A DNA stretch of 24,742 nucleotides from positions 1 through 24,742 of IMG/VR virus record IMGVR_UViG_3300046535_001340; one strand, given 5' to 3'. The stretch is from a virus. The translations under genes and the position numbers were made by a program. The notes under the pieces are model-generated. The model was not told the origin of the DNA. It did not search any database and worked only from the letters and a program-made list of their open reading frames with translations. Position 1 is the stretch's first letter, and each line of letters starts with the position of its first letter. This document shows, piece after piece, positions 7,910 through 24,442 of the stretch.

Positions 7910-8178
7910 GTGCGGAGAAAGCCACCGTGCGGCTGGCGGCAAGCCGCGCTCATCGCGCCCGTGTTCAGGCCGAGGCCGCGATGGCAGATTTCAAGACAGC
8001 CCTTGACGCGCTCGACGCGGCGATCGCCGCGATGGGCGATTACAAGGTCGAGCAAATCATGCCAATCGCTTATGACAGCCTGGGACATCCGGTCTATTCA
8101 AAGCCGACGAGCAAGGAACTGCCCGACACCCCGCAAAGCGGGGACAGCGAAATCGTCGGCTATCCCCAAGAGCCCTGA
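7906..8178 (+). CDS. Hypothetical helical protein, 90 aa, overlapping the giant gene's 3' end
   Basis: Coupled to the upstream small gene by ATGA. The first half is a long Ala/Arg/Glu-rich helix (about residues 3-43, including HRARVQAEAAMADFKTALDA), probably a coiled coil or helical hairpin; the second half (DYKVEQIMPIAYDSLGHPVYSKP onwards) is Pro-rich and likely extended. No signal peptide or membrane segment. No family recognised. Its last 81 bases overlap the last 81 bases of the giant late gene on the other strand, so the same DNA encodes two C-termini. The upstream SD and ATGA link make it credible despite the overlap. Confidence 0.65.
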   Translation: MSAEKATVRLAASRAHRARVQAEAAMADFKTALDALDAAIAAMGDYKVEQIMPIAYDSLGHPVYSKPTSKELPDTPQSGDSEIVGYPQEP

Positions 8179-11100
8179 CGCCAGCGAGCCGGCGCCGGCC
8201 TCGCTGCCCTGTTTTTGTTTTGGCTGCGGGTGGTAATAGCGCTGTTGTTGCTGCTCGCGGGTCAGAGGCTTGCTGCTTTCGCCCTTTGGCCCGGCGATAG
8301 ACCGGGCGAACTGGTCCGATGCGGTCATCGACGTCCCGTATTGTCCTAAGAGGGACAGGAGGTAGGACGCACGAGGACCACCCGGCAGCGCTGCCGCCGC
8401 GGTGGCGGCAACCGGCATGCCGATCAGGGTGTAGAGGCCGCGCAGCATGCGGTATTCCGATATATTGGTTTCAGCACTGCCCCCGCCGCTAGCCCAACCG
8501 ATGATGTCCTGCAAGCTCTCGGCAAAGACGTTGGCCTGGGCGCCCAGCGCCAGCGACGAGATTTCGTGCTCGTACCTGACATGGGAGATCGCGTTGATGA
8601 GGGGGTCGGCGACACCGCCAAGACCGATGCGCGAGAACGCCAGCGCCATGATGTTCTCGATATAGCTGCCATCCTCCAGCCACTGGTTGGTGCGGTCGGT
8701 GTCGAACAGCAGCTGCCGCAGCATCGTCGTCGGAAGCTGGATCATCATCATCCCGGCAAGCGAGGTGGCGGCGTAGCCGGCCCACTTCGCTGTCCCGCTC
8801 AGCGTGCCCTGGACCTTGCCGAGCCGCCCGCGCTCATAGGCCATTGTGGTGAACCAGCGGTTAAAGAACGGGTTGAGCACGGCCCGCTGAAAGCCGAAGT
8901 TGTACGATTGCAGCCCGTAGATCCATCGCCCCAGCGCGGAGTTTGCCCCGCGCGCCTTCTCGGAGGCGATCGGCTCGATCACCGTCTTCTCGACAAAGCG
9001 CTGAACCGCCTCGGCCCAACGCTGCCCCATCGGCGTCTGCGTCATCTCGTCGAGCGAAGGCATCTCGTCGCGGCTGGTGACCCACTTGGCAAAGTCGGCG
9101 TGCTCGCTGTTCGGGATGCCCAGCTCGCGCAATTCGCCGTGCGGGTCGAACAGCGACCCCCGCCGCTGGTTGATGATCTGCTTGCCCCAGATCTTGAGGG
9201 CGGCATCCGCGCTGGCGATGGCGCCGACCTTGTTGGCATTGGTGATGTAGGTGAGGCCCGATCGCCGGTAGGCATTCGACATCAGTCGGCCGGGGGAGCC
9301 CAGCAAACCGGCGTTTCGCCCGGTCAGCATCCCCTCGCTAAGCCGGGTCGACGTCACCCCCAGGACATTGGCAATGTCGCGCAGATGCTCGATCCGCTCG
9401 TTGGGTTTTAGCAGGTTGAGGTCGGCCAGCAAGGCGCGGGTCGCCGTCGTAAAGCCGTGAAAACCAGCCTTGAACGAGCCGGTCTGCATCGTCGCTACCA
9501 TCGGTTCGGCCACCGACGACCAGGCGGCGCGGCCCATCAACCCGATCGTATAGAGGCCGCGCGCCCAGGTGGCGAATTGATGGCCGGTCGAAACCTCGTT
9601 CGAGGTGAGGATGCCGATCGAGCTCTCGATCGATCGTTGGATCTCGACCCGGTCCTCGCGCGACACTCCCGCCGCCATCAGGTCGTTCTTGACCTTATCG
9701 AGGACTTCGCCTTTGGCGCCAAAGGTCTGGTTAAAGGCAATCTTGCGTGATACCCGGTGGAAATAGTAGGGCAGCAATTCACTCGGTGTGGTGTGGATAT
9801 AGCCGCCCTCGGCGAGAATATCCCTCGCTTCGGCCGACAGGACGCGGTTCTTGAGAGGGTTGCTGGGGCTAATGCCGCCAGTGTTCTTGTAACCCCATGG
9901 GACGTCGTTTAGCCCATAGACCCACTCATCGGCACGCTGCTTGGCCCAGGCATCGCGCATTGGATTGTGCAGCGTATGCAAGAGTTGTTGCTGCTGTCGA
10001 TCGAGATCCGCCAGCTTTTGCGGATCTGTTTCGTTGCGCATCTGCTCCTGGACTTGACCGAGCTTGGTCATCCCGTCTTTGATCGATTGGGGCAGGTTGT
10101 TCTTACCGTCGAGAGTGAGATCCTTGTAGGCTTCGTGGATAAAGGCGCCGTTCTGCTGGCGCTGCTTGACCTCGAAATCGACACTCATCGCCCGGCTGAT
10201 CGTATCGTGAGCCGGTTTTCCATCAGCCAAGATCTTTTCATTGTTGATGGAGATCGGGACGTAGCCCTCGTCTCGCGGCATGCCGACCGGGATACCGTTG
10301 CGCTCGATCTGATACCAAAAGTCGGCAAGGAGAGCGCGGACCTCGCCGGCGGCACGCTGCACGTTGGCCGGGATCGGCCCGGCACCGGTGTCGCGTCCCC
10401 GCAGCGCGTCCCATAGCTGCCGGTCGGTCTGCGCGCTGATCCGCGCGGTGTCGATCCCGTTATTGCGGAGGATCGCGTCGAGCTTGTTGACATGGCTCTG
10501 GGCCAGCCGGTTAGCCAGCCGCTCATAAGGTGTCGGCTGGTATCGGCCCTCGCTGTAGCGATAGCCGAGCTTGTCCATGACATTGCCGATAACCCGGGCC
10601 GCAGCGTGGTTGCCCAGGTTTTCGTAGCGCTCGCGATAGACGCCAAGCTGACCCATGTTCGAGTAGGCATAGGGGGTGACGACGTCCTTGAGGGTCAGCG
10701 CCCCGTGCAGGACGCCTTGCCTTGACCACCGCGGCACCTTCTCTGCGCCCATCCGGGCGGCAGTGGTTTCCAGCCCGGCCAGCATCCGCTGCCGCCACGA
10801 CGTGTAGGCGACGATCGGCTTCTTCAGCCCTGCGGCCAGCGCCGGGTTAGCCTGCGGCTCAGCCAGATTGCGCCAGTGGATGGGATCGAGAATGTCGTGA
10901 TCGCTGGGCACACTAGCCCGGGGGCCGTGCCCCAGGATCTGGTCGCGTTGCAGGACCTGATGGAGATCTTGAAACGCCTTAAAGATCGCGTCCCGGTCGG
11001 GGCCGTGCGGGTAGAGATCGTTAAACCGCTGGGTCGCTTGGTCGAGATAGGCCCGGTCGCCTTTGGTGATGAACTCGTTGCCGGCGCCCAGCACGTCGAC

Positions 11101-14100
11101 CAGATGCGCAACATAAGCTTCGTGTGCACGCGCCAGCAACTCCTCGGGTCTCGCGTGGTAGCGCGACTGCGCCCCCATACGAAACGCGGTCGGGCCGATC
11201 GTCTGATGCGTCCTGGCACCGGCGACGATGCGCGCGGCCTCTGCCGCGGCCGCCTGCCCGGCCTTGCCACCCTGCGCGGCCTTGGCGTTGAGATCGGCAA
11301 CCCGGGCGGCTTCAAGCGCGTGATCGTGAAAGATCGCGTTCATCACCCGGGCAAAGGCTTCCTCGGGGCTGCCCGGTCGGACATGGGTTTGGAGGGCGCC
11401 CTCCCGCGTGCGCGAGCTCATCAAGTTGCCGCGGGCGACGGGGCTGTTTGCCAGCTTGTCCATCAGCGCGTGATCGAGCGCGTGGGTCCATTCATGGGCA
11501 AACGAGTTCGACCGATCCGGCATGTGGATCGATTTGGTGTTGGGGTCGTAGAGGCCGAGATACGTATCTTTTCTGACGGACTTGAAGGGCTCAAGCCGCA
11601 GCGTGAGCTCGCCGTTGAGGCTCATCCCCTTCTCGGAATAACCCAGCGCATGAGCCATCCATTGCAGATTGTGGTGCGCATCCAGGAGGGTATCGATCAC
11701 CTTCTGCGGCTGCGCCTTGGGATCGACGACGACGTCCTTGAACCCGTAGATGCGCTTCAGGCCGGCGCTGAGAACATCGATCTGATCCTGCACCGGCTTG
11801 TTGACCATGACGTCGGGGTCGTAGCCCAAATCCCGAAACGCCCGGCGGTAGAGCGAGGGCCGGTCGGTAATGTCGGGCGGCACGATATTCGGCTGCCGGC
11901 GCATGTTCATTGCCGCGCGACCACGGCCGGCCTGTTGGAAGCGATCCGCAAGCGGCTGACCGCCGGGCGCGACATTCACGCCCTTGGCTTGTGCTGCTAG
12001 TTCAGGCGGTAAGGAAAACTCGGCGCCGGGAGCCGCGCCAGCCTTGTTCTCGTGTTGCGCCAGTTCAGTGGTTGGGACGTCGACATAAGAAATATCGTGC
12101 CCGTAAGCTTCGCGAAATGGCAGGGCGATACCCGGCAAATCGTTGGTGAATTGCCGGGCAGTGCCAATCTCTCCCGGTCGATTGCCGCGCCACAGCCGCG
12201 TGTAGCCATCCGCTACAGGCGGCAACGTCGCCTCGATTGCCGCGGCATCCTGACGAAACCGCACGATCGGGGCCTCGCCTTTAACCGGCTCGTTGCTGAT
12301 CGTCGGTCCCCGCGCGCCCGCGGTGTCTTGCTCTTCTGCCTTTCGTATGGCTTGAGCCTGTTCAAAACTCACAACTGAGCCATCGGCACGAACGAACAGA
12401 TTGCGGTCGGCTTTGCTGCTGCCGGGGTCGACACCGCCGTTTTCGCGAAGTGCTTGGTCGTAAGCTTCGCCGTGCGTAGCACCGGTGTAGAGCTTCCCGC
12501 CTACCCGCACCGCCGACGTCAACGTCTCCGGCTTGCCCTGCGCATCCTGCTCTTCAAGCGACAGGTGATCGGGCAACCGCTCGGTCGCCGGCGGGTGCCC
12601 TTGGGCGATGGCGTAAACAAACCCCGTGTTCGGGTCACGCACCGCGACGAGCGGGTTCTCGCCAGGACGCGCCATCAGATAGGTGTCGTGGTTGAGGTCC
12701 CCGTACTGCCCCAGAACCGAATACCGCTCCTCGGGGATCTCGACCGCGTGGCCCTCGGCGTCGTGCCCAACGACCATGACCTGGCCGGTTAGGGCATTGC
12801 CGTTCTGGTCTTTTACCGGGTCGCCGTTCTCGTCCTTGGGGGCTTCACCTTCGTAGGCCCCGGTCCAGGTGATGCCCTGCGTGGCATCGACATGGGTCGA
12901 CGTGACCAGGTCGTCTATCGCCTTGGTAGCTTTGAGATCGGTGTTGGTCTGCACCGGCTGGGTCTGCTCGGCATCCTTGAAATGCTGGTCGACAGTCGGA
13001 TTGTGCCCCTCGTTGACCAGGACGCCGGAATGGCCGATCCAGCTATTGCCCAGGCTGTCGGTCGCCCGCACCAGGGTCTGACCCTGGTCGGTGTTGGGAA
13101 CCGTGGTGATCCCCGCCTTGACCTTTTCGGCGTCGGGTGCCGGAGCGGGTAGTTCCGGCGCCTCGCGTTCCTGCTGTTGCCGCTTGGCAACCGCGTCACG
13201 CCACGCGTTGAGCACCGCGTCACGCTGAGCCTCAAAGCGGTTTACCGCAAGGTCGTGCTGGCCGGCACGGGCAAGACCGGCACCGTGCGGCAGCATGCCA
13301 AACAAGGTTGAAGCGACCATCTCCTTGGGATCGCCCAGCCCGGCGGTCAGCGATTGATCGGGATTTAGCCGGGCCTTGTCGATGACGTTGTTGACGAATT
13401 GCTGGGCCTGCGTCGCGCTCGTCATAAAGAGCCCGTCGGCCGCCATGCGGGTGGCTGCGACAAAGAAGACGCGCTTCTCGACCGGGGTCAGCGCCGCCAT
13501 CCAGCGAGCCATCGGGACCGTCATGATCCCGGCCGCGGCCATCGCCTTGAGGCCGGCGTCGGCCGATGCATCCTCGGGTGCGTAACCCGCCTTGGTGTTC
13601 TCCTGGTACGCTTGCGAGTAGGTTTGCATTCCCGCCACGCCGACAAGCCCCGGGAGACCTGTCGTCGTCGCCGCGATAACATACGCGGGCAGGGTGCCGA
13701 TCATCTGACCGACTTTCGTCGACAGTGCGTCCTCGTAGCCCGGCGGCGGCTTGATCTTTTCGCCTTGCGTGGTGAGCCAATCGCCCGGGGTAGCGATCGC
13801 TTCGCCGACTGCTTGGGCCCCCTTGAAAACCCCGGTCTCTTTGACCGGCGGCAGGGCGGTGATTTCGGCCTGGGCTTGTTGACGAATAGCCGCGCGCTGA
13901 TCCGCGGACGCATCCCGGTAATCGTTGCCAAAACTCTGCATCACCGCATCGTTGCTGTCGATGTGCGGGTTTTGGCCGGCATCGATCGCGTCCATGACCG
14001 CGATCTGCTGGCGCATATGCGCCTGGTAACCAGCAACAAGGCCAGCAGCACCACCGGTAATCATGTGCCCGGGGGCGGCGATCAGTTGGCCGGTCGAACT

Positions 14101-15780
14101 CACCAGGCTGCCCGTGGCGGCGTAAGCGAATGCATTGCCTGCCGAGGGTGTGGGTTGGTAGTCGGGCTGTTCCGCGCCCGGCGCTGCCGTCCCCATCGAC
14201 GCCTCGGAGCCGAGTTCGCCGGGGGCCGGAGCCGCATAAGGCGCTTGCGGCGTTGGCGGCTGCACCGCGCCCGGCGCTGCCGTCCCCATCGACGCCTCGG
14301 AACCCAACTCCGCGGGAACCGGGTAAGGCCCTTGCGGTGGTGCTAGCGGTGCAGCCGGCGGCTGCACCGCTCCCGGTGCAGCGGTTCCCATCGATGCCTC
14401 GGAACCGAGCTCGGCAGGAGCCGGGTAAACGACGGACACCTCTGGTAGCACCAGCTGCGGCGCCGGTTGCACCGCTCCCGGTGCAGCCGTCCCCATCGAT
14501 GCCTCGGACCCGAGCTCGGCAGGAACCGGCAATGCTGCTGGTGGTGTGACTTCTGGCTGTGGCGCCGGCTGCGGCTGTTCCGCTCCCGGTGCCGCTGTTC
14601 CCGCCGACGCCTCGGACCCTATCTCTTGACCGGTCGGTAGTTGCGGCAGCAATGACGCGAATGACGGTAGCGTCGGCAACGGAACCGGCGTCTCCGGTTC
14701 AGCCGCGAAGCGACCATCTTTAGTCGGATAGGGTGTCCAGGGGGAGGGCTTCTCCGATGTTCCCGGGGTTGGTGTTGTATCGGCAGTCGGGGTGGGCTGC
14801 GTCTCCCAAGGCGGGGACGTAGGCCACTGCGGCGTCGCTGGCGCCGCTGCCTCGGTTGGTTTTTCCCAAGGCGGGGACGTGGGCCACTGCGGGGCCGCGT
14901 CCTGGGACGTAGCGGGCGGGGCTGGCGACACTGCCGACGGTAACTCGGCCGGTTTTTCTTGCTGCTGCCAAGGCGGGGTCGTCGGCCATTGCGGTGGCGC
15001 GTACTCACCGGGCTTGGGTGGTGGACCGGGCGGCGGGGGCACACTATAAGCGCCGCCGCTCGCGGTCTGCGGCCCGAGGTCGGTAGCCGGCGCTGTCGCT
15101 ATTGCCGGTGCCGGTGCCGGCGCGGGCACCGGCTGCTGCGTCTCCCACGGCTTGGTTGTCGGCCATTGCGGCGCTTGCTGCTCCGGCTGCTCCGGCTGCT
15201 CCGGCGTTGCCGGCGCGGTTGGCGCCGCTACCGGGGTGGTGGCGAATTTCTGTTTGGCCGCGGCTGCTTCGCGATAGATCTCTTGGGCGTCGCCAAACCC
15301 GGGCGAAGCCCTGGCGCCCCCGAGATCATAGTGCATGATATCGCGCTGGCCGCTGCCCTTCTCCGTTTCAAAGTAATTGCCCCAGCCGAATTGCTGTGCC
15401 TTTTGCGGGTTGATGTATTGAAGATTGAGCAGCCCTTGCACCGCGGCATTACGATAGAGGCGCGTGACGTCAGGGCCGCGGTTGGATATATCGTTGCCGT
15501 TGTTATCGTAGATATGCCAGTCCTCGGCGTGGCCCGTGTAATGCTGCGAAGAAGGGTCACCACCGCGCACGCCCGATGTCATCACGGCGCGGAAACCCGC
15601 CGGCAGGACCGTGGCAAAAGCCGACGCCATTGCTCTGTGCAGATCGGGGTCGACCCCCGAGAGGACGCCGGGGCCGGCACTGCCGCCGCCGCGTCCTGGC
15701 ACTAAGGGTGTCGGCGGCCCTGTCGCTCGCCCCGCGGTGCCTGTCCCAGCGCCCCAGGTAAAGTCGTCGAGCGGCATCAC
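8098..15780 (-). CDS. Giant polyvalent internal virion protein (gp16 position), 2560 aa
   Basis: Last gene of the late operon, where T7-like phages keep the ejected lytic protein gp16 (about 1300 aa); this one is twice that size. Order: residues 40-155 carry an M15-type peptidase motif set, SQHYTGHAED (78-87) and DIMH (147-150), giving presumed zinc ligands H80, D87, H150 for cutting peptidoglycan. Residues 170-540 are Pro-rich with four PQWPT-type and five ELGSEAS-type repeats. Residues 550-850 are mostly helical with hydrophobic stretches (about 691-718). Residues 1190-1262 look ADP-ribosyltransferase-like (R1198, F1211-T1212, E1254). Residues 1300-1565 hold a zincin, HEWTH (1429-1433) with RPEELLARAHEAYV (1544-1557) offering a third ligand. 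The rest to 2500 is helical, with hydrophobic segments near 2332-2359 and 2451-2468, suited to crossing membranes. Start GTG 15780 or ATG 15777; both overlap the upstream stop. M15 and zincin motifs are clear; the ART call and the ejection role are inference. Confidence 0.93.
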   Translation of the reverse strand: MMPLDDFTWGAGTGTAGRATGPPTPLVPGRGGGSAGPGVLSGVDPDLHRAMASAFATVLPAGFRAVMTSGVRGGDPSSQHYTGHAEDWHIYDNNGNDISNRGPDVTRLYRNAAVQGLLNLQYINPQKAQQFGWGNYFETEKGSGQRDIMHYDLGGARASPGFGDAQEIYREAAAAKQKFATTPVAAPTAPATPEQPEQPEQQAPQWPTTKPWETQQPVPAPAPAPAIATAPATDLGPQTASGGAYSVPPPPGPPPKPGEYAPPQWPTTPPWQQQEKPAELPSAVSPAPPATSQDAAPQWPTSPPWEKPTEAAAPATPQWPTSPPWETQPTPTADTTPTPGTSEKPSPWTPYPTKDGRFAAEPETPVPLPTLPSFASLLPQLPTGQEIGSEASAGTAAPGAEQPQPAPQPEVTPPAALPVPAELGSEASMGTAAPGAVQPAPQLVLPEVSVVYPAPAELGSEASMGTAAPGAVQPPAAPLAPPQGPYPVPAELGSEASMGTAAPGAVQPPTPQAPYAAPAPGELGSEASMGTAAPGAEQPDYQPTPSAGNAFAYAATGSLVSSTGQLIAAPGHMITGGAAGLVAGYQAHMRQQIAVMDAIDAGQNPHIDSNDAVMQSFGNDYRDASADQRAAIRQQAQAEITALPPVKETGVFKGAQAVGEAIATPGDWLTTQGEKIKPPPGYEDALSTKVGQMIGTLPAYVIAATTTGLPGLVGVAGMQTYSQAYQENTKAGYAPEDASADAGLKAMAAAGIMTVPMARWMAALTPVEKRVFFVAATRMAADGLFMTSATQAQQFVNNVIDKARLNPDQSLTAGLGDPKEMVASTLFGMLPHGAGLARAGQHDLAVNRFEAQRDAVLNAWRDAVAKRQQQEREAPELPAPAPDAEKVKAGITTVPNTDQGQTLVRATDSLGNSWIGHSGVLVNEGHNPTVDQHFKDAEQTQPVQTNTDLKATKAIDDLVTSTHVDATQGITWTGAYEGEAPKDENGDPVKDQNGNALTGQVMVVGHDAEGHAVEIPEERYSVLGQYGDLNHDTYLMARPGENPLVAVRDPNTGFVYAIAQGHPPATERLPDHLSLEEQDAQGKPETLTSAVRVGGKLYTGATHGEAYDQALRENGGVDPGSSKADRNLFVRADGSVVSFEQAQAIRKAEEQDTAGARGPTISNEPVKGEAPIVRFRQDAAAIEATLPPVADGYTRLWRGNRPGEIGTARQFTNDLPGIALPFREAYGHDISYVDVPTTELAQHENKAGAAPGAEFSLPPELAAQAKGVNVAPGGQPLADRFQQAGRGRAAMNMRRQPNIVPPDITDRPSLYRRAFRDLGYDPDVMVNKPVQDQIDVLSAGLKRIYGFKDVVVDPKAQPQKVIDTLLDAHHNLQWMAHALGYSEKGMSLNGELTLRLEPFKSVRKDTYLGLYDPNTKSIHMPDRSNSFAHEWTHALDHALMDKLANSPVARGNLMSSRTREGALQTHVRPGSPEEAFARVMNAIFHDHALEAARVADLNAKAAQGGKAGQAAAAEAARIVAGARTHQTIGPTAFRMGAQSRYHARPEELLARAHEAYVAHLVDVLGAGNEFITKGDRAYLDQATQRFNDLYPHGPDRDAIFKAFQDLHQVLQRDQILGHGPRASVPSDHDILDPIHWRNLAEPQANPALAAGLKKPIVAYTSWRQRMLAGLETTAARMGAEKVPRWSRQGVLHGALTLKDVVTPYAYSNMGQLGVYRERYENLGNHAAARVIGNVMDKLGYRYSEGRYQPTPYERLANRLAQSHVNKLDAILRNNGIDTARISAQTDRQLWDALRGRDTGAGPIPANVQRAAGEVRALLADFWYQIERNGIPVGMPRDEGYVPISINNEKILADGKPAHDTISRAMSVDFEVKQRQQNGAFIHEAYKDLTLDGKNNLPQSIKDGMTKLGQVQEQMRNETDPQKLADLDRQQQQLLHTLHNPMRDAWAKQRADEWVYGLNDVPWGYKNTGGISPSNPLKNRVLSAEARDILAEGGYIHTTPSELLPYYFHRVSRKIAFNQTFGAKGEVLDKVKNDLMAAGVSREDRVEIQRSIESSIGILTSNEVSTGHQFATWARGLYTIGLMGRAAWSSVAEPMVATMQTGSFKAGFHGFTTATRALLADLNLLKPNERIEHLRDIANVLGVTSTRLSEGMLTGRNAGLLGSPGRLMSNAYRRSGLTYITNANKVGAIASADAALKIWGKQIINQRRGSLFDPHGELRELGIPNSEHADFAKWVTSRDEMPSLDEMTQTPMGQRWAEAVQRFVEKTVIEPIASEKARGANSALGRWIYGLQSYNFGFQRAVLNPFFNRWFTTMAYERGRLGKVQGTLSGTAKWAGYAATSLAGMMMIQLPTTMLRQLLFDTDRTNQWLEDGSYIENIMALAFSRIGLGGVADPLINAISHVRYEHEISSLALGAQANVFAESLQDIIGWASGGGSAETNISEYRMLRGLYTLIGMPVAATAAAALPGGPRASYLLSLLGQYGTSMTASDQFARSIAGPKGESSKPLTREQQQQRYYHPQPKQKQGSEAGAGSLASGLLGIADDFAVPALRGVGQFLARRL
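14164..14625 (-). repeat. Five protein-level repeats, ELGSEASMGTAAPGA
   Basis: Within the giant protein, copies begin at residues 386 (EIGSEASAGTAAPGA), 422, 457, 491 and 522 (all ELGSEASMGTAAPGA), spaced 31-36 residues apart by Pro/Ala/Gln linkers. DNA copies differ mainly at third codon positions, for example at the Gly, Ala and Ser codons. Confidence 0.85.
14803..15171 (-). repeat. PQWPT(T/S)xPW repeats
   Basis: Four copies in the giant protein: residues 204-213, 263-272, 297-306 and 317-326, with a worn relative PSPWTPYPT at 345-353. The last two copies are exactly 20 residues (60 bp) apart and nearly identical in DNA, pointing to recent tandem duplication. Confidence 0.8.
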
Positions 15781-15947
15781 CTACCCATGCGGGGAGGACG
15801 CGGCAGCGGTTTCTTCGCGGCGGGGCGGGGCACGCGCTTGCTGCGTATGATCGGTTCGGCGGGAAGACGCGGCGCGACCGGCAAACCCGGAGGCGACGGT
15901 ACGCCACCAAGGGCGGCGCCGGGGACGGTGATCCTGGGTGTTTTCAT
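15777..15947 (-). CDS. Small basic Pro/Arg-rich protein, 56 aa
   Basis: Starts at ATG 15947 overlapping the stop of the internal protein gene (ATGA) and ends at TGA 15779-15777, which overlaps the start of the giant gene (GTGA or TGATG). The product opens MKTPRITVPGAALGGVP and ends KKPLPRPPRMGR; roughly a quarter is Pro and it carries about ten Arg/Lys with a single Glu, so it is strongly cationic and probably unfolded alone. The reading frame stays open much further upstream to 16376, but that part lies on top of the internal protein gene. It may be a minor virion peptide packed with DNA or a chaperone for the giant protein; no family recognised. Confidence 0.6.
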   Translation of the reverse strand: MKTPRITVPGAALGGVPSPPGLPVAPRLPAEPIIRSKRVPRPAAKKPLPRPPRMGR

Positions 15948-17473
15948 TGCCGGTAATTCCCGTTCTTTCTGGCGGTGGCGATTTGTGCTGCGGTGGCAAC
16001 GCCCCAGTTCGCTGCGTTGTTGGGGTCGCCACTGGTATAGACACGGTTCCCCCAAACAGCGCCCGGCTGGATAGCACCGCTGGAGGCGGCGCCGGCCGGC
16101 TTTGCTGCCGCAGGCTTTGCCGCCGCGGGTGCCGGTGCGGTGTATCTTACGGGTGGGGTCGCTGGCGCCGGTTTCGGCAGCGCGGATGTTCCCGAGGGTG
16201 CCACTGGGGTCGCTGCCGGCGGCGCTGCCGCCGGCGGTGCTGTTGTCGACGGCGCCATCGGCGTTGTCGGCGTTGCTGGTCCCGTCTGATAAATCTCCGG
16301 CTGGCCGCCGCCCATAAAATGTCGGGTGGTGTCGAGTTTGCCGGCAGCTTTCAGCGGCTCGATAACATCGCTCCACGCCTGGTTGACCGCGGCATCGACA
16401 CTGCCAAACGTGCCTTTGCTCGCCGGGCTGAGCATCAACTGGTTCGCTCGGTTGGTGACCTGTGCTTTCAAGTCGTCCGAAAGGCGATACCGATTAGGAC
16501 TGCTTACATCAGCCTTGCCCGGGCCAAAGATGCCGCCGAGCCCTCCGGGCTGGCCGTAGGCTTCGGCAGCCTTGCGGTCGACCGCGATATCGAGACTTTC
16601 TTTGGCCTGATTGGTCGGCAGCTGACCCCTCTGCCCCGCTGCTGTCAGGTTTGTGCTGGCTTGGCCCGCCGGTGTGTCAGGATTAGTTGGCGCCGGATTG
16701 GTCGTTGTCGCTGCGCCCCCCTGGGGCCCCGTTTGAGGCTGTGTCGCTGCAGCCGGCGGCGATACCCCATGCGATGGCGGCGCTTGCTGGGCGCCCCTGC
16801 CACCCAGGACCGTCGCTGTATCAGCGGGGTTCTGATAGTTCGGCATGTAAGTGCCGGGGGGTGAGGCATTGACTTGATTGGGTGTGGCCAGTACCGGGCC
16901 AGCCGGGCCAGCATTGCCTTGACCACTGCTGGTAGCGGGTGCCGGTGTGTTGCCCCAGCGGTAATTCTCGTTTGTTTGATTGATGCCCGCCACGTCGCGC
17001 TGCGCGTTGGCCCCGATCGTCGCCGTGTTGACCTGGTTTTGCAGTTGAGCGTTAAAACCGCTCGGTGTGTTCCCGGCCGGGACCATGCCGGCCCCGGCAT
17101 TATATTGATCGCGTTGCGCTTGCGTCATGCTGGGGACGTTCTGGATGACCCCTGCCAGATTGTTGTGCCAGGCGTTTTGCTCGTCGGCCGGCAGCGTCGT
17201 CATCCACGAGTAGATCTGCGCCCGGTTGTTGGGGTCGGCGGCAGCGTTGGGGTTGGCAAAGATCGTCGCGAGATTGCTGCGTGCGGTAGCTTGCGTGTTG
17301 AGCAGCTGGGTCTGTGTGTTCTTGTATCGCGCATCGGCCAAGGAATTGGGGTCGGGAAAGAGCCCCTTGGCTAGGTTAGAGATCCCTGTGGCCCAGCCCT
17401 GGGACGCCGAGCCGGCCCCGGTGTTGAGGTCCGGGACGTAGACTGAAGGCCCAAAAGGATCGTTTACCGGCAT
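15944..17473 (-). CDS. Pro/Ala-rich internal virion protein (gp15 position)
   Basis: A 509-residue protein located between the gp14-like genes and the giant gene, which is where T7-like phages encode internal core protein gp15. No direct homology is visible. Regions: 1-25 extended; 26-170 mainly helical, Asn/Gln/Ala-rich (LLNTQATARSNLATIF, DEQNAWHNNLAGVIQNV); 175-285 Pro/Thr/Ala low complexity; 290-390 a more ordered domain (AKESLDIAVDRKAAEAYGQ, RYRLSDDLKAQVTNRANQL, VDAAVNQAWSDVIEPLK); 400-470 Pro/Ala/Thr-rich; 475-509 ending NWGVATAAQIATARKNGNYRQ. ATG 17473 follows the preceding stop by 12 nt with only a weak SD. It probably forms part of the inner core or the ejected channel together with its neighbours. 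Confidence 0.82.
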   Translation of the reverse strand: MPVNDPFGPSVYVPDLNTGAGSASQGWATGISNLAKGLFPDPNSLADARYKNTQTQLLNTQATARSNLATIFANPNAAADPNNRAQIYSWMTTLPADEQNAWHNNLAGVIQNVPSMTQAQRDQYNAGAGMVPAGNTPSGFNAQLQNQVNTATIGANAQRDVAGINQTNENYRWGNTPAPATSSGQGNAGPAGPVLATPNQVNASPPGTYMPNYQNPADTATVLGGRGAQQAPPSHGVSPPAAATQPQTGPQGGAATTTNPAPTNPDTPAGQASTNLTAAGQRGQLPTNQAKESLDIAVDRKAAEAYGQPGGLGGIFGPGKADVSSPNRYRLSDDLKAQVTNRANQLMLSPASKGTFGSVDAAVNQAWSDVIEPLKAAGKLDTTRHFMGGGQPEIYQTGPATPTTPMAPSTTAPPAAAPPAATPVAPSGTSALPKPAPATPPVRYTAPAPAAAKPAAAKPAGAASSGAIQPGAVWGNRVYTSGDPNNAANWGVATAAQIATARKNGNYRQ

Positions 17474-17485
17474 CTAGGTATCTCG

Positions 17486-18547
17486 CTACACAAAGGGTGT
17501 GTTGCCCCAGGTCTTGATACTGTTCAAGAAGCTGCCAGAGCTGTTGTTGAGACCAAGGCTGCTACCGGCACCGAGATAGCCGGAGCCATACGAACCGACC
17601 TGGCCGACCGCGGAGAGGATACCGGGGAGCGGATCGGAGGCAGCTTTCCAGGCCGCCACCGCAGCCTGGTTCTGGGCAGCGTTGCCGATGTCGGCTTGTT
17701 GCAAATCGGCGGTGGTGATGTCGCCGGCGCCGATGGCGCCGGAGACGTTGAGGCGCCCCTGGGTGCGCGCCTGAATGACGTCAAGCAAGCTCTTGTAGTA
17801 ATTGCCTGCGGTCTGATAGCCGACCGTGCTTGGCCCTAGTTGGACCGGCAGCGATGCTTGGATCTGCCGCTCGCGATCCGCGAGAGGCAAGCTCGTGGTA
17901 TTGAGCCCTTGCGTCACGTTGGCGATCTGGGCGAGCGGCGCCCCGTAGGACGCGACTGTGGCGCGTTTGCCAGCATAGTCGCGGGTCTGTGCCGCAGCCT
18001 GGGCCAGTCTTGTAGCGATCGCCGAGGCGGTCTCGTTGCTGGTCGGGGCGGCGACCCCCGCCGGGTTGCCGCTGGCATCGGCCGGCGCGGCCGCAGTGGG
18101 GCCTGTCGCGGCACCACCCCCGCCCCCTGCCGTGGCCATCGCCACGATCTGTTGTTGCTGTGCTGCCTGGGCCTGGGCGGGATTGATCCGGGACGTGGCG
18201 TCGGCGATGGCCTGTTGCGCTTGGGAACCGATCGTCTTGGCTTGCTCATTGGACGAGGCAATCTGGGCTTCGCGGTCGGCCGTCGCCTGGTTCTGCGATG
18301 TCTCAAGCTGGTTTTGCGCGTCGGCGCGCGCCTGGATTGCGGACTGTTGGGTCGCATAATCACGTTGCTGCTGATCGGACTGCGCTTGCAGCCGCTGCAT
18401 AAAACCGGTGTTCTGCGCGACCTGGGTCTGCCGCGCCGCCGACATCTGAGCGTTGGCCACGCTGGCCTGGCTCTGGGACGACATGATCGCGCCGCCGACC
18501 GTGGCGACAGCGCTGACAGCGGCGATAGCAAGGAGGGGTGTGCACAT
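17486..18547 (-). CDS. gp14-like internal core protein
   Basis: The start MCTPLLAIAAVSAVATVGGA followed by IMSSQSQASVANAQMSAARQ strongly recalls T7 gp14 (MC, a short hydrophobic N-terminal helix, then Gln/Ala helices); gp14 is ejected and inserts in the outer membrane to begin the DNA channel. Residues 25-140 are a Gln/Ala/Arg helical region likely to form coiled coils (QAQSDQQQRDYATQQSAI and others); 142-165 is a Gly/Ala hinge; 170-290 is helical again (DYAGKRATVASYGAPLAQIA); the end is Gly/Ser-rich, GSYGSGYLGAGSSLGLNNSSG. At 353 residues it is longer than T7 gp14 (196). ATG 18547 begins 3 nt after the upstream stop. Confidence 0.82.
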   Translation of the reverse strand: MCTPLLAIAAVSAVATVGGAIMSSQSQASVANAQMSAARQTQVAQNTGFMQRLQAQSDQQQRDYATQQSAIQARADAQNQLETSQNQATADREAQIASSNEQAKTIGSQAQQAIADATSRINPAQAQAAQQQQIVAMATAGGGGGAATGPTAAAPADASGNPAGVAAPTSNETASAIATRLAQAAAQTRDYAGKRATVASYGAPLAQIANVTQGLNTTSLPLADRERQIQASLPVQLGPSTVGYQTAGNYYKSLLDVIQARTQGRLNVSGAIGAGDITTADLQQADIGNAAQNQAAVAAWKAASDPLPGILSAVGQVGSYGSGYLGAGSSLGLNNSSGSFLNSIKTWGNTPFV

Positions 18548-18550
18548 GGC

Positions 18551-19402
18551 CTATAACCCTGGCGCTGTTGGGCCTTTGCCGCCGCCGCCGGCAGCACCGC
18601 CGGCGCCACCGACTTGGGCGGCGTTGTAGGCTTGGTTGCCCTGAAGGAAGTTGCCGATCCCGGTGCCGACCCCGCCAAAGATATTGCCGATGGCCGACGA
18701 GGTCGGCAGCTGGCCGATCTTGGCGATCTGGTCGGCACCGGTCACCGAGACGTCTTGCAGGGATCGGTTGGTGTTGTCGATCGCGGCTTGCATGGCCTCA
18801 GGCGTGGCTGGCGACACCGGTTGCCCCAAGGCACCCGTCGAGAGGATCTGCGTTAGAAGCGAGTTCTGGGTCTGGCCAACCTGGCTCTTGAGGGCCTGTG
18901 CGGCCTGGGACGCATTGGTGGCAAGGTCGGTCATCGCGCGTCCCCGCGCCTGGTCGAGCGAACCCTGGAGATCGGCGTGCGACTGGGAGTTCAGCTGCCC
19001 GTTACGGGCAAGGCCAAAGACCATCTGGCCGTGCGCGTTGGTGTACTGCCGGTCGATCTCGGGTTGCAGCGCCGCAGCATAGTCTTTGGCGTACTGGTTG
19101 TAGTAATCATCGTTGTAAGGCGCAAAGGTCTGGTTGACCCAGTTGGTGTACTGGTTGGCCAGCTGCGAACGATTTCCGTCATAATTCGCCTGGACCTGGG
19201 CGGTCGTGACGGCTTCTTGCTGACGCTGGGCGTCCTGGGACTTTTGATAGTCAAGCGCTTCTTGCGACTGTTGGTTCTGCTGGTCGGCGATCTTCTGCTG
19301 GAGGTCGGCGTTCTGGCTGGCGATCTGCTGCTGCGCCTGGATCTGCGCTTGCGCGATCGGCACACTGTAATCCGGGCCTGGGCTCGCACCACCGAAGCAC
19401 AT
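18551..19402 (-). CDS. Second Gln-rich internal virion protein, MCFGG type
   Basis: I chose ATG 19402, giving 283 residues beginning MCFGGASPGPDYSVP, because an MC(F/W)-Gly start is a hallmark of internal core proteins in podoviruses; the longer frame to 19450 would add 16 residues that only retranslate the gp13-like gene. Residues 16-70 are a Gln/Ala coiled-coil-like stretch (AQIQAQQQIASQNADLQQK), followed by a Tyr/Asn-rich part (FAPYNDDYYNQYAKDYAAAL), more Ala/Gln helices and a Gly-rich tail ending GGGGKGPTAPGL. Its build parallels the next gene, so the two may be paralogues or two subunits of the inner core. The SD is weak, so translation is probably coupled to the gp13-like gene, which it overlaps by 152 nt. 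Confidence 0.8.
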   Translation of the reverse strand: MCFGGASPGPDYSVPIAQAQIQAQQQIASQNADLQQKIADQQNQQSQEALDYQKSQDAQRQQEAVTTAQVQANYDGNRSQLANQYTNWVNQTFAPYNDDYYNQYAKDYAAALQPEIDRQYTNAHGQMVFGLARNGQLNSQSHADLQGSLDQARGRAMTDLATNASQAAQALKSQVGQTQNSLLTQILSTGALGQPVSPATPEAMQAAIDNTNRSLQDVSVTGADQIAKIGQLPTSSAIGNIFGGVGTGIGNFLQGNQAYNAAQVGGAGGAAGGGGKGPTAPGL

Positions 19403-19874
19403 CCTGCGGGGTCCACACGTAGGAGACGAAGTCCTCGCCGTGGCGTCCAAGGCCGCGGCGGGTCCCCTCTTCGCGGGCGCCTAGCGCCTCCATCCAGCGC
19501 CGGCTATCCCTGTGCGTTGCGAGTGCGACCGCTTCCGCGCGGTGGAACCGCGCGCGCAAGAGTGCGGGGATAATAAAGCGTCTGGAATGCTTTGTCATCG
19601 CCAACACGACTTGCGGCCAACGGTGGGTGCCAAAGGCCCAACACGACCAGACGCCGGGGCGCACCGGCCAGGCCCCTTGCAGCGAAATCGGCTCGTCGTC
19701 ACGCCACCAGATCCAGGTCATCGCGCCGGCCCACAGCATGACCTCGTCGACCAACTTCTTCTCGTCGTCGTCCCAGCGCAGGGCAAAGATTTCCTCGCGA
19801 TCCCGCGGGCGCAGGTTTCGTACAATGTGCTCGACCGCATCCCGCTCGACCGGACGGTGCTGGGCGACAGTCAT
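19251..19874 (-). CDS. gp13-like protein (DUF2833), GNAT-like
   Basis: Residues 1-150 match the T7 gp13/DUF2833 pattern, a small GNAT-like fold in the late operon: an N-terminal charged helix (DAVEHIVRNLRPRDREEIFAL), WWRDDEPISLQGAWPVRPGVWSCWAFGT, the helix HSRRFIIPALLRARFH, the segment HRDSRRWMEALGA and the ending DFVSYVWTPQDV. T7 gp13 is needed for correct virion assembly but its chemistry is not established. ATG 19874 overlaps the fibre gene stop as ATGA. The family usually ends near residue 155, but this frame runs about 50 residues further through the start of the next gene, with a Pro/Arg/Ala-rich sequence that looks like an unintended readout. The extension may or may not be part of the working protein. 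Confidence 0.8.
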   Translation of the reverse strand: MTVAQHRPVERDAVEHIVRNLRPRDREEIFALRWDDDEKKLVDEVMLWAGAMTWIWWRDDEPISLQGAWPVRPGVWSCWAFGTHRWPQVVLAMTKHSRRFIIPALLRARFHRAEAVALATHRDSRRWMEALGAREEGTRRGLGRHGEDFVSYVWTPQDVLRWCEPRPGLQCADRASADPGAAADRQPERRPPAEDRRPAEPTVARSA

Positions 19875-20710
19875 CGCGCCCGCCGCGCACTGAGCGTCCC
19901 GCCAACCGTTAAGGCCGCCGTGCTAAAAAACTGAAATGACGTCAGGTAAATCGTTGTCGGGCTCGCGAGCGACAGACGCTGTTGCGGAGCCACCAGGCTG
20001 ATTGTCGGGGTCGTCCAAGAGCCCTGCCATGCCGCATACCGCGACTGGTCCGGCAAACCGCCCGAAACCGTCCCGACGCCACCGCGGAAGTCGACGAGGA
20101 TGGCGCCAGACCCATTTGCCGCCACCACGCCCCACACATCCCAGTCGCCCGCCGTCAGGCTAATACTCGTCACATTCAGGATCGCGCCGCTCGTCGCCGT
20201 CAGCCCAGACGCGATTGGAATGTTGCTCTCGACATACTCCCCGACACGCCCCGCCGCGGCGTTGTCGTTGGTGGTCGTCGCGGGAAGCTGACCGGCAGCA
20301 ATGCTCGACGCGACGGAGGTCGGCGAGGCGGCGATCGGGATCTGGCCGGCGACCATTCCCGACATATTGGCCGAACCCGCCGGCCCCGTTGCTCCTGTTG
20401 GCCCTGTCGGCCCTGCCGGCCCTGCCGGGCCCGGCACCGTGCTGGCAGGGCCTGTCGGGCCCGGTGGCCCGGCCGGACCCGGGGGGCCGGCCGGTATCGC
20501 GGCAACCGCGGTATGAACAAAGGCTGTCGTCGCAACACTGGTGTCATTGTCGCCGGGCGGTGGCGTCGGCGCTTGCGGGTCGCCGGTAAACACCGGAGAA
20601 CCAAGCGGCGCGTAGTCCTGGTTCGCGATATTCGTGATATAGCGCTTCAGTGTAATTGCCAGATGCGGCGCGTCCCCCGGGTGTGCCAGACGACGAAGCG
20701 TTTGCGCCAT
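19871..20710 (-). CDS. Collagen-like tail fibre/appendage protein
   Basis: A 279-residue trimeric fibre candidate. The N-terminus (1-65) carries YITNIANQDYAPLGSPVFTG and PPGDNDTSVATTAFV, the attachment-and-repeat sequence common in phage tail fibres. Residues 75-112 are collagen-like Gly-X-Y triplets (GPPGPAGPPGPTGP and GPAGPAGPTGPTGATGPAG), broken once at ASTVP. The C-terminal part (120-279) with VGEYVESNIPI, LNVTSISLTAGDWDVWGVV and a strand-rich end resembles the compact beta-sandwich head domains that follow collagen stalks in phage adhesins. It likely binds the host surface. The order after tail tubular B and before gp13 differs from T7, where the fibre gene comes last. ATG 20710 overlaps the upstream stop (TGATG). 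Confidence 0.85.
   Translation of the reverse strand: MAQTLRRLAHPGDAPHLAITLKRYITNIANQDYAPLGSPVFTGDPQAPTPPPGDNDTSVATTAFVHTAVAAIPAGPPGPAGPPGPTGPASTVPGPAGPAGPTGPTGATGPAGSANMSGMVAGQIPIAASPTSVASSIAAGQLPATTTNDNAAAGRVGEYVESNIPIASGLTATSGAILNVTSISLTAGDWDVWGVVAANGSGAILVDFRGGVGTVSGGLPDQSRYAAWQGSWTTPTISLVAPQQRLSLASPTTIYLTSFQFFSTAALTVGGTLSARRAR
20375..20488 (-). repeat. Collagen-type Gly-X-Y repeat region
   Basis: Encodes residues 75-112 of the fibre protein: about eleven Gly-X-Y triplets dominated by GPA, GPP and GPT, with one break. This length is enough for a short triple helix. Confidence 0.85.
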
Positions 20711-22137
20711 CAGCCGCCCCCGCCTTTGACTTCGCCGTCCTGGTAATTGATCGAGATCGAGGCGATGCGTCCCGCCGTCGCGTCCTGGGACGTCAGCTGC
20801 AAGCCGATATGGGTGCCGTAGCCGGCAAACTTGATCTTCTGGAGCGAGAAGGTCTCCCCCGTGAAAACCCCGCAGCGTTCATAGGTAAAGGGGGCGCCGG
20901 GGTTCATCCCGATATCCAAGGCCCACGATCCCTGGATCATCAGGTCGATCGACGAGATCCGTTTCCAGATGCTGGGAGATTGGTTGTGCATCATCGGCGT
21001 GCGTACAATCGCCGGGGTCGCGTCGTAGACCAGCCCGCTCGCGCCGCCGTAAAGATAAAGATTGTCGCCGTTGCGCAGATAGACCTGGTTATTGGTCGAC
21101 GCCATGTAATCGATGTGAAACGGCACCTCAAAGGTCGACCAGGCGCTGACCTTCGACGAGGGAAAATACGACAGGACGTAGATCGTGTTGTCAAATGCTA
21201 GCCAATAGCGCCCATTGATCGGCTCGATCACCGCCCGCGCGACATAAGCCTCGCTCGGGTTGGTCAAGATGTGGTTGGTCACGATCGGATCGATCGGTGA
21301 GCCGACATCGATCACCGAGGCGGCCATCGAGATGTTCATCGCGCGTAGCGAACGAATGCCGCTATCGGAGAGAAACATCACGTCGCCAGTGCCAAACTGG
21401 ATCGCCGAGAGCCCGGAGATCGTGCCGATACGCAGGGTCTGCAAGAGATTGTTCTGGGTCGGGTCGGGATCGAGATACCAGATTAGCGTGACCAGCCGCG
21501 ACAGGACCGCCATGCGATCGTAATAGATCTCCAGACCGTTGATAAACTCGGCGTCGGCATCGTCCTGGGCCATCGAGATAAAGCCCGCTCCGCGGGGGTC
21601 GTTGACGTCCTGGTCGCTCCACGCGCCGGGGTCGCCGACATCGGAAAACCGCAGATCGGCCTGGTCACCAAGATAGAGTTTGGAGCGATGGGTGCGGCAG
21701 TATTGCCCGGCGACAGGCACGTTGACCTGGCCGGCTGGACCAAGCCACATCGGCCGATTAGAGCCGTTATCGCCTTGCGCGATAATAAACGGGTAATTAT
21801 CCCAGGTGTCGTAATCGACGATCCGGGCCAGCGATGTGGCGCTCAGCACCGAAACATCGACGTGTTTGCAGTTGACCGGGATCGGGCAGTTGGGGACCGA
21901 TAGCGGGCCATCGGGCAACGATGACGAATACACCGTGATCTGGCCGTCCCAGGCCGAGAGCCCTACCGTCCCCGGCGGCAGCGGGCCGACATCGACAAAC
22001 GCCTTGCGCCGCTCGATCTCGGCGCCATTGGTCAGGACGCAGTCTTGCAGCATCTGCAAGCTGCCCGGCGGCGCGGTTAGCGGCGATTTGCGAACATCGA
22101 GGCCGTGAGTAAAATCCTCGATCAGGAGGATCGGCAT
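20710..22137 (-). CDS. Tail tubular protein B-like (gp12 position)
   Basis: A 475-residue strand-rich protein starting MPILLIEDFTHGLDVRKSPL with PPGSLQMLQDCVLTNGAEIERRKAF, the standard opening of podovirus nozzle/tail-stabilisation proteins, which announce where tube proteins list gene products 'per contig' of the propeller. Following repeats alternate short strands and aromatic turns (RSKLYLGDQADLRFSDVGDP, DSGIRSLRAMNISM, NGRYWLAFDNTIYVLSYFP), as in beta-propellers of the T7 gp12 family. It should form the tail nozzle through which DNA leaves. The gene starts directly after the gp11-like stop (TAAATG) and ends TGATG with the fibre gene. It is shorter than T7 gp12 (794 aa), which carries additional domains, and nearer in size to P22-type nozzle proteins. 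Confidence 0.8.
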   Translation of the reverse strand: MPILLIEDFTHGLDVRKSPLTAPPGSLQMLQDCVLTNGAEIERRKAFVDVGPLPPGTVGLSAWDGQITVYSSSLPDGPLSVPNCPIPVNCKHVDVSVLSATSLARIVDYDTWDNYPFIIAQGDNGSNRPMWLGPAGQVNVPVAGQYCRTHRSKLYLGDQADLRFSDVGDPGAWSDQDVNDPRGAGFISMAQDDADAEFINGLEIYYDRMAVLSRLVTLIWYLDPDPTQNNLLQTLRIGTISGLSAIQFGTGDVMFLSDSGIRSLRAMNISMAASVIDVGSPIDPIVTNHILTNPSEAYVARAVIEPINGRYWLAFDNTIYVLSYFPSSKVSAWSTFEVPFHIDYMASTNNQVYLRNGDNLYLYGGASGLVYDATPAIVRTPMMHNQSPSIWKRISSIDLMIQGSWALDIGMNPGAPFTYERCGVFTGETFSLQKIKFAGYGTHIGLQLTSQDATAGRIASISINYQDGEVKGGGG

Positions 22138-22857
22138 TTACGGCCTCGCCGGGCCAGAGCCATAGCCGGGCGGGATGTAGTCGATACCGATGCGCGGCTG
22201 CGTCATGTCGCCGGTGCCGCCACCCCCTACTACGAAGGGCCGGCGCTTGTGAGCGGTCTGGCGCGTCTGGAGCCGATGCAGATAGGCGTTGGCCTTTTGC
22301 AGCTTGATCGGCGCGTCCTTGGCGTTCTCGCGCGCCAGGAGCTCGGCCGCGGTGAATAGCACGATCATGGTTGGGTCCATGATGCACGTGTCGTCCATCG
22401 CGATGAGCTCGGGGATGAGAAGATGCCCACGCAGCCGCAGCGTGCCGGTTTGCGAGGGGATCGGCCAGCACTCGAACTCGCTTTGATCGTAGTTATGCAT
22501 CCAGCGCTGCACCGGCCACGAGATAAAGCCGAGGTCCGAGTTCCAGATGGCAAAGTGCTCGGGGTAGATCCCGTACTCGATGACGTTCCAAACGTTGTTG
22601 AGCAGCACCCACATATCGTTGACTTGCTCGAACGGCATGTCTGCGGGGTACGGGTAGTAACGCTGGTTGGCGACCAGCACGATATCCCGGTCGATCTGGA
22701 GGTTTGGCCAATCGTAGGAATAGGCCAGTTCGTTCTGAGTACGGTTGATTAAGTAAGTGATCGTCTCGACGTCGTTGACCCCCATCGCCGGGGACGTCGA
22801 GTGCCCGGCTTCCATGCGGGTCGCATTAAGCAGATCACTAAGCAAACGGCCCGGCAT
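22138..22857 (-). CDS. Tail tubular protein A-like head-tail adaptor (gp11 position)
   Basis: A 239-residue protein with the marks of podovirus adaptors: MGVNDVETITYLINRTQNEL near the start, NLQIDRDIVLVANQRYYPYP (a strand pair with Tyr-Pro turn), then EQVNDMWVLL, FISWPVQRWMHNYDQSEFEC, PSQTGTLRLRGHLLIPEL, and a closing helix bundle with FTAAELLARENAKDAPIKLQKANAYLHRL. It would join the portal ring to the tail nozzle, as T7 gp11 and P22 gp4 do. The last 30 residues are Gly/Pro-rich and extended. ATG 22857 overlaps the preceding gene by 20 nt and its stop touches the start of the gp12-like gene. Confidence 0.85.
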   Translation of the reverse strand: MPGRLLSDLLNATRMEAGHSTSPAMGVNDVETITYLINRTQNELAYSYDWPNLQIDRDIVLVANQRYYPYPADMPFEQVNDMWVLLNNVWNVIEYGIYPEHFAIWNSDLGFISWPVQRWMHNYDQSEFECWPIPSQTGTLRLRGHLLIPELIAMDDTCIMDPTMIVLFTAAELLARENAKDAPIKLQKANAYLHRLQTRQTAHKRRPFVVGGGGTGDMTQPRIGIDYIPPGYGSGPARP

Positions 22858-23359: not shown

Positions 23360-24442
23360 TTACGCGATATCGTAGACCCCGGACTGGTTCAGCTGCTGCG
23401 CCACCATCTGACCGGTAGCGGTGAGTGATTTATACATCACAAAGCTGTTGTAGGGTCTCGCCGGCGTGAACAGATGACGCCATTCGTCATCCATCTTCAT
23501 CAAGTAAACATGCCGCGGATCAAACCAATAGGCCCGCTTGCTGTAGCCGAGGTCGTCGAGCCAGGGGTCGTACTGGATGGTGATGCCGTTAAACATCATC
23601 CCGCCGATTGAGCCGTCTTGCGGCCCGCGGAAACCGCGCTGGGTGTAGACACCGTTGGCCCGCATCTCGACTTCCATTGCATTAATAAATGCGCTCCCGG
23701 CCAGGAACTCGGTCGGGTCGCCGCCATAGCGGATCAACTGCCGGTATTCTTGCTGAAGCACCTGCAAGAGCGCGCCGCCATTCGTCGCGGCCGAGGTGAT
23801 GGGCGCGTTGCCGCCGGCAGCGCCCGCGGCTGTCGTGTAGGCACGGTTGCGCCACCACGAGTGCAACGCGGCATCGATACCGCCGACCACACCGGTTGCC
23901 GGGTTGTCGCGGATGATCGACCGGATACCGGCGAGTGCCTTGGGATCGGCCACGCCATCACCCCACAGGAGCTTGGTCATCGACCGGGCGTACTGCTCGC
24001 CAAAGTCGTTGAGCTTGTCCTCCAGGAGGTTAACCAGGACGGTCATTTCGCGCTGGGTGTGACGGCTCAAATTGTCACCATTACCCTCTTCATCGGTGAC
24101 ACTGATACCGTCGATCTTGAGCTCGGTGTGAGTGAGGGTCAGGCCGATATGGTGCTCACGCCACGGGTAGTTCGCACGCAGGATATTAGCGGGCGTGTAG
24201 AAGTTCACCGCGTCGTTGTGGGTGTAGCCGACAACGCTGTCGTTGGTGCCGCCAGCGCCAAAGTCGCCCTTGATCGCCAGGGAGATATTGCCCTTGCCAC
24301 CCGGGAAAGACTTAGCGGTCCGTTCCGCTTGGTTGAGCAACGGCTTGGCTTGGATGGTCTGTTTGAAGGTATCGCCTCGGTTAAAATAGAAGTCTAAGGC
24401 GGCGTTTGCGATGTTGGTGATTTCTCCAGCTGTAAATGCCAT
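23360..24442 (-). CDS. Major capsid protein
   Basis: A 360-residue shell protein, assumed to have the HK97 fold. It begins AGEITNIANAALDFYFNRG and shows features shared by this capsid family: an early Phe/Gly-rich part (KSFPGGKGNISLAIKGDFG), WREHHIGLTLTHTELKIDGI, LEDKLNDFGEQYARSMTKLLWG, the segment VVGGIDAALHSWWRNRAY, the helix LLQVLQQEYRQLIRYGGDP, FLAGSAFINAMEVEMRANG, and a P-domain to C-terminal run with GGMMFNGITIQYDPWLDDLG and RHVYLMKMDDEWRHLFTPARPY. It lies between a small C-terminal gene fragment and the tail genes, as in T7-like and related podoviruses. ATG 24442 has GAAGGG 7 nt upstream, sitting in a hairpin. Confidence 0.93.
   Translation of the reverse strand: MAFTAGEITNIANAALDFYFNRGDTFKQTIQAKPLLNQAERTAKSFPGGKGNISLAIKGDFGAGGTNDSVVGYTHNDAVNFYTPANILRANYPWREHHIGLTLTHTELKIDGISVTDEEGNGDNLSRHTQREMTVLVNLLEDKLNDFGEQYARSMTKLLWGDGVADPKALAGIRSIIRDNPATGVVGGIDAALHSWWRNRAYTTAAGAAGGNAPITSAATNGGALLQVLQQEYRQLIRYGGDPTEFLAGSAFINAMEVEMRANGVYTQRGFRGPQDGSIGGMMFNGITIQYDPWLDDLGYSKRAYWFDPRHVYLMKMDDEWRHLFTPARPYNSFVMYKSLTATGQMVAQQLNQSGVYDIA

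Follow-up and report, generated by a model that had tools for sequence, protein, structure and literature searches.

Introduction

In phage T7, gp16 (internal virion protein D) carries an N-terminal wall enzyme on a helical body and is found in the membrane and the cytoplasm after ejection (PMC8954989). The virion RNA polymerase (vRNAP) of phage N4 is packaged unprocessed and encapsidation depends on its metallopeptidase (MPTase) region (PMC5512222), while a 4515-amino-acid (aa) DarB-like protein was found in virions of the Bcep22-like phage JC1 (PMC9144972). In LUZ24, nine virion proteins were reported by electrospray ionization tandem mass spectrometry (PMC3517423), and the LUZ24 record labels gp50 as a virion structural protein. 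The route by which polyvalent effector proteins enter cells has so far been largely assumed. Here, we analysed a 24.7-kb virus fragment (IMG/VR record IMGVR_UViG_3300046535_001340, hereafter the window), in which one minus-strand gene encodes a giant protein with several biochemically unrelated domains in a single polypeptide: an M15-like domain, an ADP-ribosyltransferase (ART)-like domain, a zincin with LPD1, and an ejection-type tail. Our results suggest that it is probably an ejection protein of the gp16/internal virion protein D class, from a LUZ24-like podovirus, that has grown into a polyvalent protein.

Results

Judged from sequence profiles and a predicted structure, the helical tail belongs to the internal or ejection proteins of podoviruses (LUZ24-like, T7-type). 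An alignment seeded with the homologue of Microcystis phage Mae-Yong1326-1, that of IMG/VR contig L001 and the window protein yielded 76 IMG/VR contigs, mostly near-complete over a 1265-aa core, and a 46-sequence profile of this zincin-tail core was used for hhalign comparisons. The profile aligned with the KPP25 structural protein (99.7%, E 6e-27) and, over 627 columns, with PaP3 orf19 (99.2%, E 3e-19), a 1056-aa protein annotated as a virion structural/constituent protein. Within the giant protein, the homologous stretch is about aa 1686-2416. The N4 vRNAP (C-terminus included), P1 DdrB and an LPD38 protein gave nothing with the core profile; they were rejected as sequence relatives and serve as negative controls. 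The AlphaFold model of aa 1165-2360 reached a predicted local distance difference test score (pLDDT) of 80 and a predicted template modelling score of 0.74, and its tail is all-alpha. Searched with Foldseek against viral models (BFVD), it matched KPP25 (E 1.4e-14, prob 1.00) as well as internal virion proteins of RSB3, LIMElight, VP2, PS, JG068, LKA1, BB8, CB5A and pEp_SNUABM_12 (E 1e-9 to 1e-5, prob 1.00). An alignment with T7 gp16, weak alone, covered 254 columns in the C-terminal part of gp16 (residues 762-1046, P 0.0014). Compared with the PDB by sequence, neither the whole protein nor the core gave anything significant, and a search of genome contigs returned a single weak 90-residue match. 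The long helical tail of the original prediction is supported by this homology.

The position of the gene is that of T7 gene 16, as had been proposed. On the minus strand, the order of transcription is major capsid protein, one gene of no assigned function, SU10-type adaptor, gF, collagen-like fibre, gD, gC, gB, gA, a 56-aa open reading frame (ORF) and the giant gene, which is the last of the internal-protein genes that follow the nozzle gene; genes for a SNF2 helicase, an exonuclease, a single-stranded DNA-binding protein and DNA polymerase A converge on it from the plus strand. Among the relatives' loci, a nozzle gene, wherever one was found, precedes the giant gene in the same orientation (48/48), and the DNA polymerase lies downstream on the opposite strand in 15/15. 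The slot is thus T7-like, but the genome type is not: the late genes are LUZ24-like and the closest annotated record is Mae-Yong1326-1, which has a matching gene order, PaP3 and LUZ24 sharing the plan. Mae-Yong1326-1 was described as long-tailed (PMC9503304), yet its genes are LUZ24-like podoviral. On the basis of tail homology and slot, the giant protein probably resides in the virus head and is injected along with the DNA.

Table 1. Features of the giant gene and its surroundings (window positions; aa numbers refer to the giant protein)
Feature	Position	Strand	Basis
Giant gene (probable ejection-type polyvalent protein)	8098..15777	-	ORF, start comparison, full-length homologues
Small basic Pro-rich ORF, 56 aa (MKTPRITVPG...PRPPRMGR)	15777..15947	-	Start/stop overlaps with both neighbours
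Likely M15-like peptidase domain, aa 43-180	15241..15654	-	Motifs, alignment, AlphaFold topology, Foldseek, hhalign
SxHxxGxAxD metal motif, aa 78-87 (S78-Q-H80-x-x-G-x-A-x-D87)	15520..15549	-	
DxxH second metal motif, aa 147-150 (D147xxH150)	15331..15342	-	
Pro/Ala-rich repeat linker, about aa 181-545	14146..15240	-	Repeats: 4x PQWPTxxPW, 4x ELGSEASMGTAAPGA
Gly/Ala-rich, moderately hydrophobic segment, aa 546-870	13171..14145	-	Composition
Segment aa 871-1165	12286..13170	-	Without match in annotated phage records
ART-like domain, aa 1170-1268 (LWRG, FTNDL, AEF.LP)	11977..12273	-	Family alignment, AlphaFold
Zincin metallopeptidase domain, aa 1325-1625, including LPD1 (1537-1612)	10906..11808	-	Profiles, alignment, AlphaFold
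HEWTH motif (HExxH), aa 1429-1433	11482..11496	-	
E1554, invariant candidate third zinc ligand	11119..11121	-	46/46 sequences
Alpha-helical tail, about aa 1686-2560	8098..10725	-	PaP3/LUZ24/KPP25 virion protein homology; gp16-type structural match
gA, putative internal protein	15944..17473	-	
gB, Gln/Ala-rich putative internal protein	17486..18547	-	
gC, Gln-rich putative internal protein	18551..19450	-	
gD, phrog_308 internal virion protein (gp13-like by position)	19251..19874	-	
gF, nozzle/tail tube B-like	20710..22137	-	Homologue of Mae-Yong 'packaged DNA stabilization protein'
gG, SU10-type adaptor	22138..22857	-	
Major capsid protein	23360..24442	-	

By its sequence, the zincin is a genuine polyvalent-protein metallopeptidase with an intact catalytic set. 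Profile matches were obtained with NCBIfam CLCA_X (E 2.6e-11) and Pfam LPD1 (E 3.1e-10), and all 46 sequences share NSFAHEW, the second His with an Asp three positions after it (HEWTHALD), E1547, R1551 and E1554. The invariance of NSFAHEW is partly built in, since it was among the retrieval patterns, while the second His, the Asp, E1547, R1551 and E1554 lay outside the pattern. HExxH alone is weak evidence, because it arises in 6.6% of shuffles; the Asp occupies the position seen in phage-type polyvalent MPTases by Iyer et al. (PMC5512222). The helix bearing the candidate Glu ligand falls within LPD1, which is therefore probably no domain of its own but the C-terminal part of the zincin. The two zinc-type motif sets that had been predicted are both present in frame, and the HExxH set proved to be of the polyvalent kind. 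A structural match to the zincin fold in the PDB was not obtained: Foldseek of the aa 1165-2360 model gave no significant match there, unrelated helical proteins dominating, so that the zincin and ART folds are unconfirmed against solved structures.

An intact catalytic set bears on whether the zincin cuts at all. The ejection protein might instead stay whole, the zincin being a structural or assembly factor that releases no cargo, as may hold for N4 vRNAP: it is packaged unprocessed, its MPTase region being needed for encapsidation nonetheless (PMC5512222), and in its structure an HExxH domain likewise precedes a large helical one (PMC12633501). We consider this unlikely, given that the catalytic residues outside the search pattern are as invariant as those within it (46/46) and that N4 vRNAP showed no sequence similarity.

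The zincin-tail core is shared by the ~76 environmental contigs, whose front ends differ. In a Pfam scan of the first 1100 aa of 45 relatives, ddrB-ParB was detected in 30/45 and ART-PolyVal in 1/45; no known wall enzyme was recovered, and neither ddrB-ParB nor ART-PolyVal was detected by Pfam in the window protein. By sequence comparison, the chassis of the relatives thus bears other cargo, most often a ddrB-ParB domain, and an M15-like and an ART-like domain in this order on this tail were found in no relative beyond the closest contigs. With this ddrB-ParB domain ahead of the zincin, most relatives recall P1 DdrB, for which Iyer et al. (PMC5512222) proposed a maturation role. A zincin acting as maturation protease before or during packaging, leaving fragments in the virion, nevertheless appears quite unlikely here, the zincin-tail core having no detectable homology to P1 DdrB.

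At the N-terminus, aa 43-180 likely form an M15-like peptidase domain, according to motifs and a model. The Zn-ligand signature H-D-H of M15 peptidases is present in SxHxxGxAxD and DxxH, a combination found in 6/20,000 shuffles, and H80, D87 and H150 are invariant in the alignment of the window protein, L001 and L008. The AlphaFold model has the element order helix-strand-[SxHxxG]-strand-helix-strand-strand[DxxH], which is the M15 topology, at low confidence (pLDDT 57). Its top Foldseek match among 350,542 PDB chains was the M15 domain of Ply500 (2vo9; prob 0.69, E 0.11), and both metal motifs align with the A500 endolysin in hhalign (P 0.005). The domain had no Pfam M15 match in the window protein and only a sub-threshold Peptidase_M15_4 in L001 (E 0.04), nothing significant in the PDB by sequence and no match in annotated phage records; further scans restricted it to this small clade. 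Of the wall peptidase put forward originally, the motif set therefore stands, whereas the M15 fold is weakly supported. The resemblance to Ply500 would also suit a late lysis enzyme with an endolysin domain and no virion role; this is very improbable for a gene in the gp16 slot whose tail has homologues among annotated virion structural proteins.

The ART-like region (aa 1170-1268) is, on sequence comparison, a recurrent polyvalent module, and its ART nature is unproven. It is common to other large phage proteins at 52-68%, including an LPD38 protein and DarB-like helicase/methylase proteins, and this recurrence in giant phage proteins marks it as mobile. LWRG, FTNDL and AEF are kept across the family, with R, T and E placed in a manner reminiscent of R-S-E ARTs, so that R / S-T / E is a candidate catalytic triad by analogy. 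The domain had no match in Pfam, in the PDB by sequence or in annotated phage records, nor did the whole-chain Foldseek search give an ART fold. The possible ART of the original prediction is consequently retained as a conserved domain that matched no known ART family or fold. In the DarB-like giant protein of contig L089 (aa about 2500-2760), a putative ART-PolyVal-type segment is directly followed by a window-type ART-like domain; the two ART-like segments did not match each other.

The Pro-rich repeat stalk had been drawn over aa 180-1150. It holds for about aa 181-545; the rest comprises the Gly/Ala-rich segment, in which no transmembrane helix was called, and the separate region of aa 871-1165. 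Near the end of the latter (aa about 1150-1165), L001 has extra residues, part of the roughly 77-aa length difference between the 92%-identical proteins; from the aligned sequences, these are a module indel. Many of the relatives' giant proteins (among L008-L080) begin with short linear repeats (FDDLIP, FADL, DFRPS, GFFDD), possibly packaging or docking signals, of which the PQWPT/GSEAS repeats of the window protein may be an analogue.

The predicted frame of 2560 residues was confirmed on the minus strand: 15780-8098 gives 2560 codons from GTG, and 15777-8098 gives 2559 aa from ATG. Contigs L001 and L002, which may be the same virus, encode 2637-aa homologues with ~92% identity, and L008 encodes one of 2377 aa with 53% identity across the core. 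Such near-full-length homologues in other contigs, together with an isolate record, refute a fusion of separate genes by misassembly or frameshift, for which we found no supporting point and which is almost certainly not the case. The 56-aa ORF, absent from the supplied ORF list and kept in L001 and L008, is overlapped by the end of gA as ATGA and itself overlaps the giant gene as TGATG. Because of this conserved overlap, and because the L008 gene starts TAG-ATG without GTG, the start is likely ATG 15777 rather than GTG 15780, as read from these sequences. Further upstream, the listed gC and gD frames share 200 bases; gC probably starts downstream of its listed TTG. By BLASTP, gD did not match T7 gp13.

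Discussion

These data are compatible with a four-step entry. By analogy with T7 gp16, the helical tail, whose homology is described above, would hold the protein within the head and, once infection starts, thread through the portal and nozzle to the inner membrane and cytoplasm ahead of the DNA. The M15-like domain, on its long flexible Pro/Ala tether, would then cut peptide cross-links of the peptidoglycan and let the channel pass the wall; the domain itself is likely, and we lean slightly towards this action. The zincin, lying between cargo and tail, could cut a polypeptide, most likely its own, during or after ejection, thereby freeing the cargo from the tail. With the catalytic residues in place and the substrate conjectural, we give this a little under an even chance. 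Lastly, the ART-like domain, free in the host cytoplasm, might modify a host or defence protein, which is speculative and somewhat unlikely.

Several points weigh against the proposed function. Cleavage is not a given, because the zincin-bearing N4 vRNAP is packaged unprocessed (PMC5512222). Hydropathy of the tail did not exceed that of shuffles for transmembrane segments. To these are added the low-confidence M15-like model with its weak Ply500 match, and the PDB search of the aa 1165-2360 model.

We tentatively raise a wider possibility, that zincin and gp16-type tail might work as a common self-cleaving chassis for delivery among the LUZ24-like podoviruses of a large environmental group. 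The tail would carry the protein through the envelope, the zincin would sever the tether, and different front ends (ddrB-ParB, M15 wall enzyme or ART-like effector) would be swapped between phages like cargo. If true, a single system would comprise both the polyvalent effectors and the podoviral ejection machine. An effector-type front is covalently linked to a virion/ejection-type tail in ~76 contigs, and the protease that separates the two appears intact. A concrete, testable route is thereby offered, in which the tail packages, the zincin releases and the front cargo is exchangeable.

Compared with known systems, N4 vRNAP gp50 is also a giant ejected protein encoded at the end of the late genes, with an HExxH domain before a large helical domain (PMC12633501), but its cargo is an RNA polymerase and no sequence similarity was detected. 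T7 gp16 shares the slot, the N-terminal wall enzyme with helical body, and the structural matches to many gp16-type proteins. It differs in its transglycosylase, its 1318 aa and the lack of any reported zincin or ART-like domain, direct sequence similarity being marginal. PaP3 orf19 and the KPP25 structural protein have homologous tails, and the PaP3/LUZ24 proteins also lie near the end of the late genes, but are of 1056 aa; Pfam recognised an enzyme domain neither in PaP3 orf19 nor in the examined part of the KPP25 protein. With phage-type polyvalent proteins such as P1 DdrB (PMC5512222), the window protein shares a zincin MPTase with Asp three residues past HExxH, LPD1, module mixing and a late-gene context, although it lacks a detected ddrB-ParB. 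Mae-Yong1326-1 ORF38 (UUJ74515, 2441 aa), with 30% identity over aa 1296-2515, has the same slot, gene order, zincin, LPD1 and tail; it differs by an extra HELGH site (aa 954), and the M15 motif and ART-like domain were not found there. Its label 'peptidoglycan transglycosylase' (L003:16425-23750) was rejected, as Pfam gave no such domain. To conclude, the window protein joins known kinds, the polyvalent protein and the gp16-type ejection chassis, in a new domain combination; what it chiefly adds is that polyvalent cargo is explicitly tied to a gp16-type ejection tail throughout a large environmental group.

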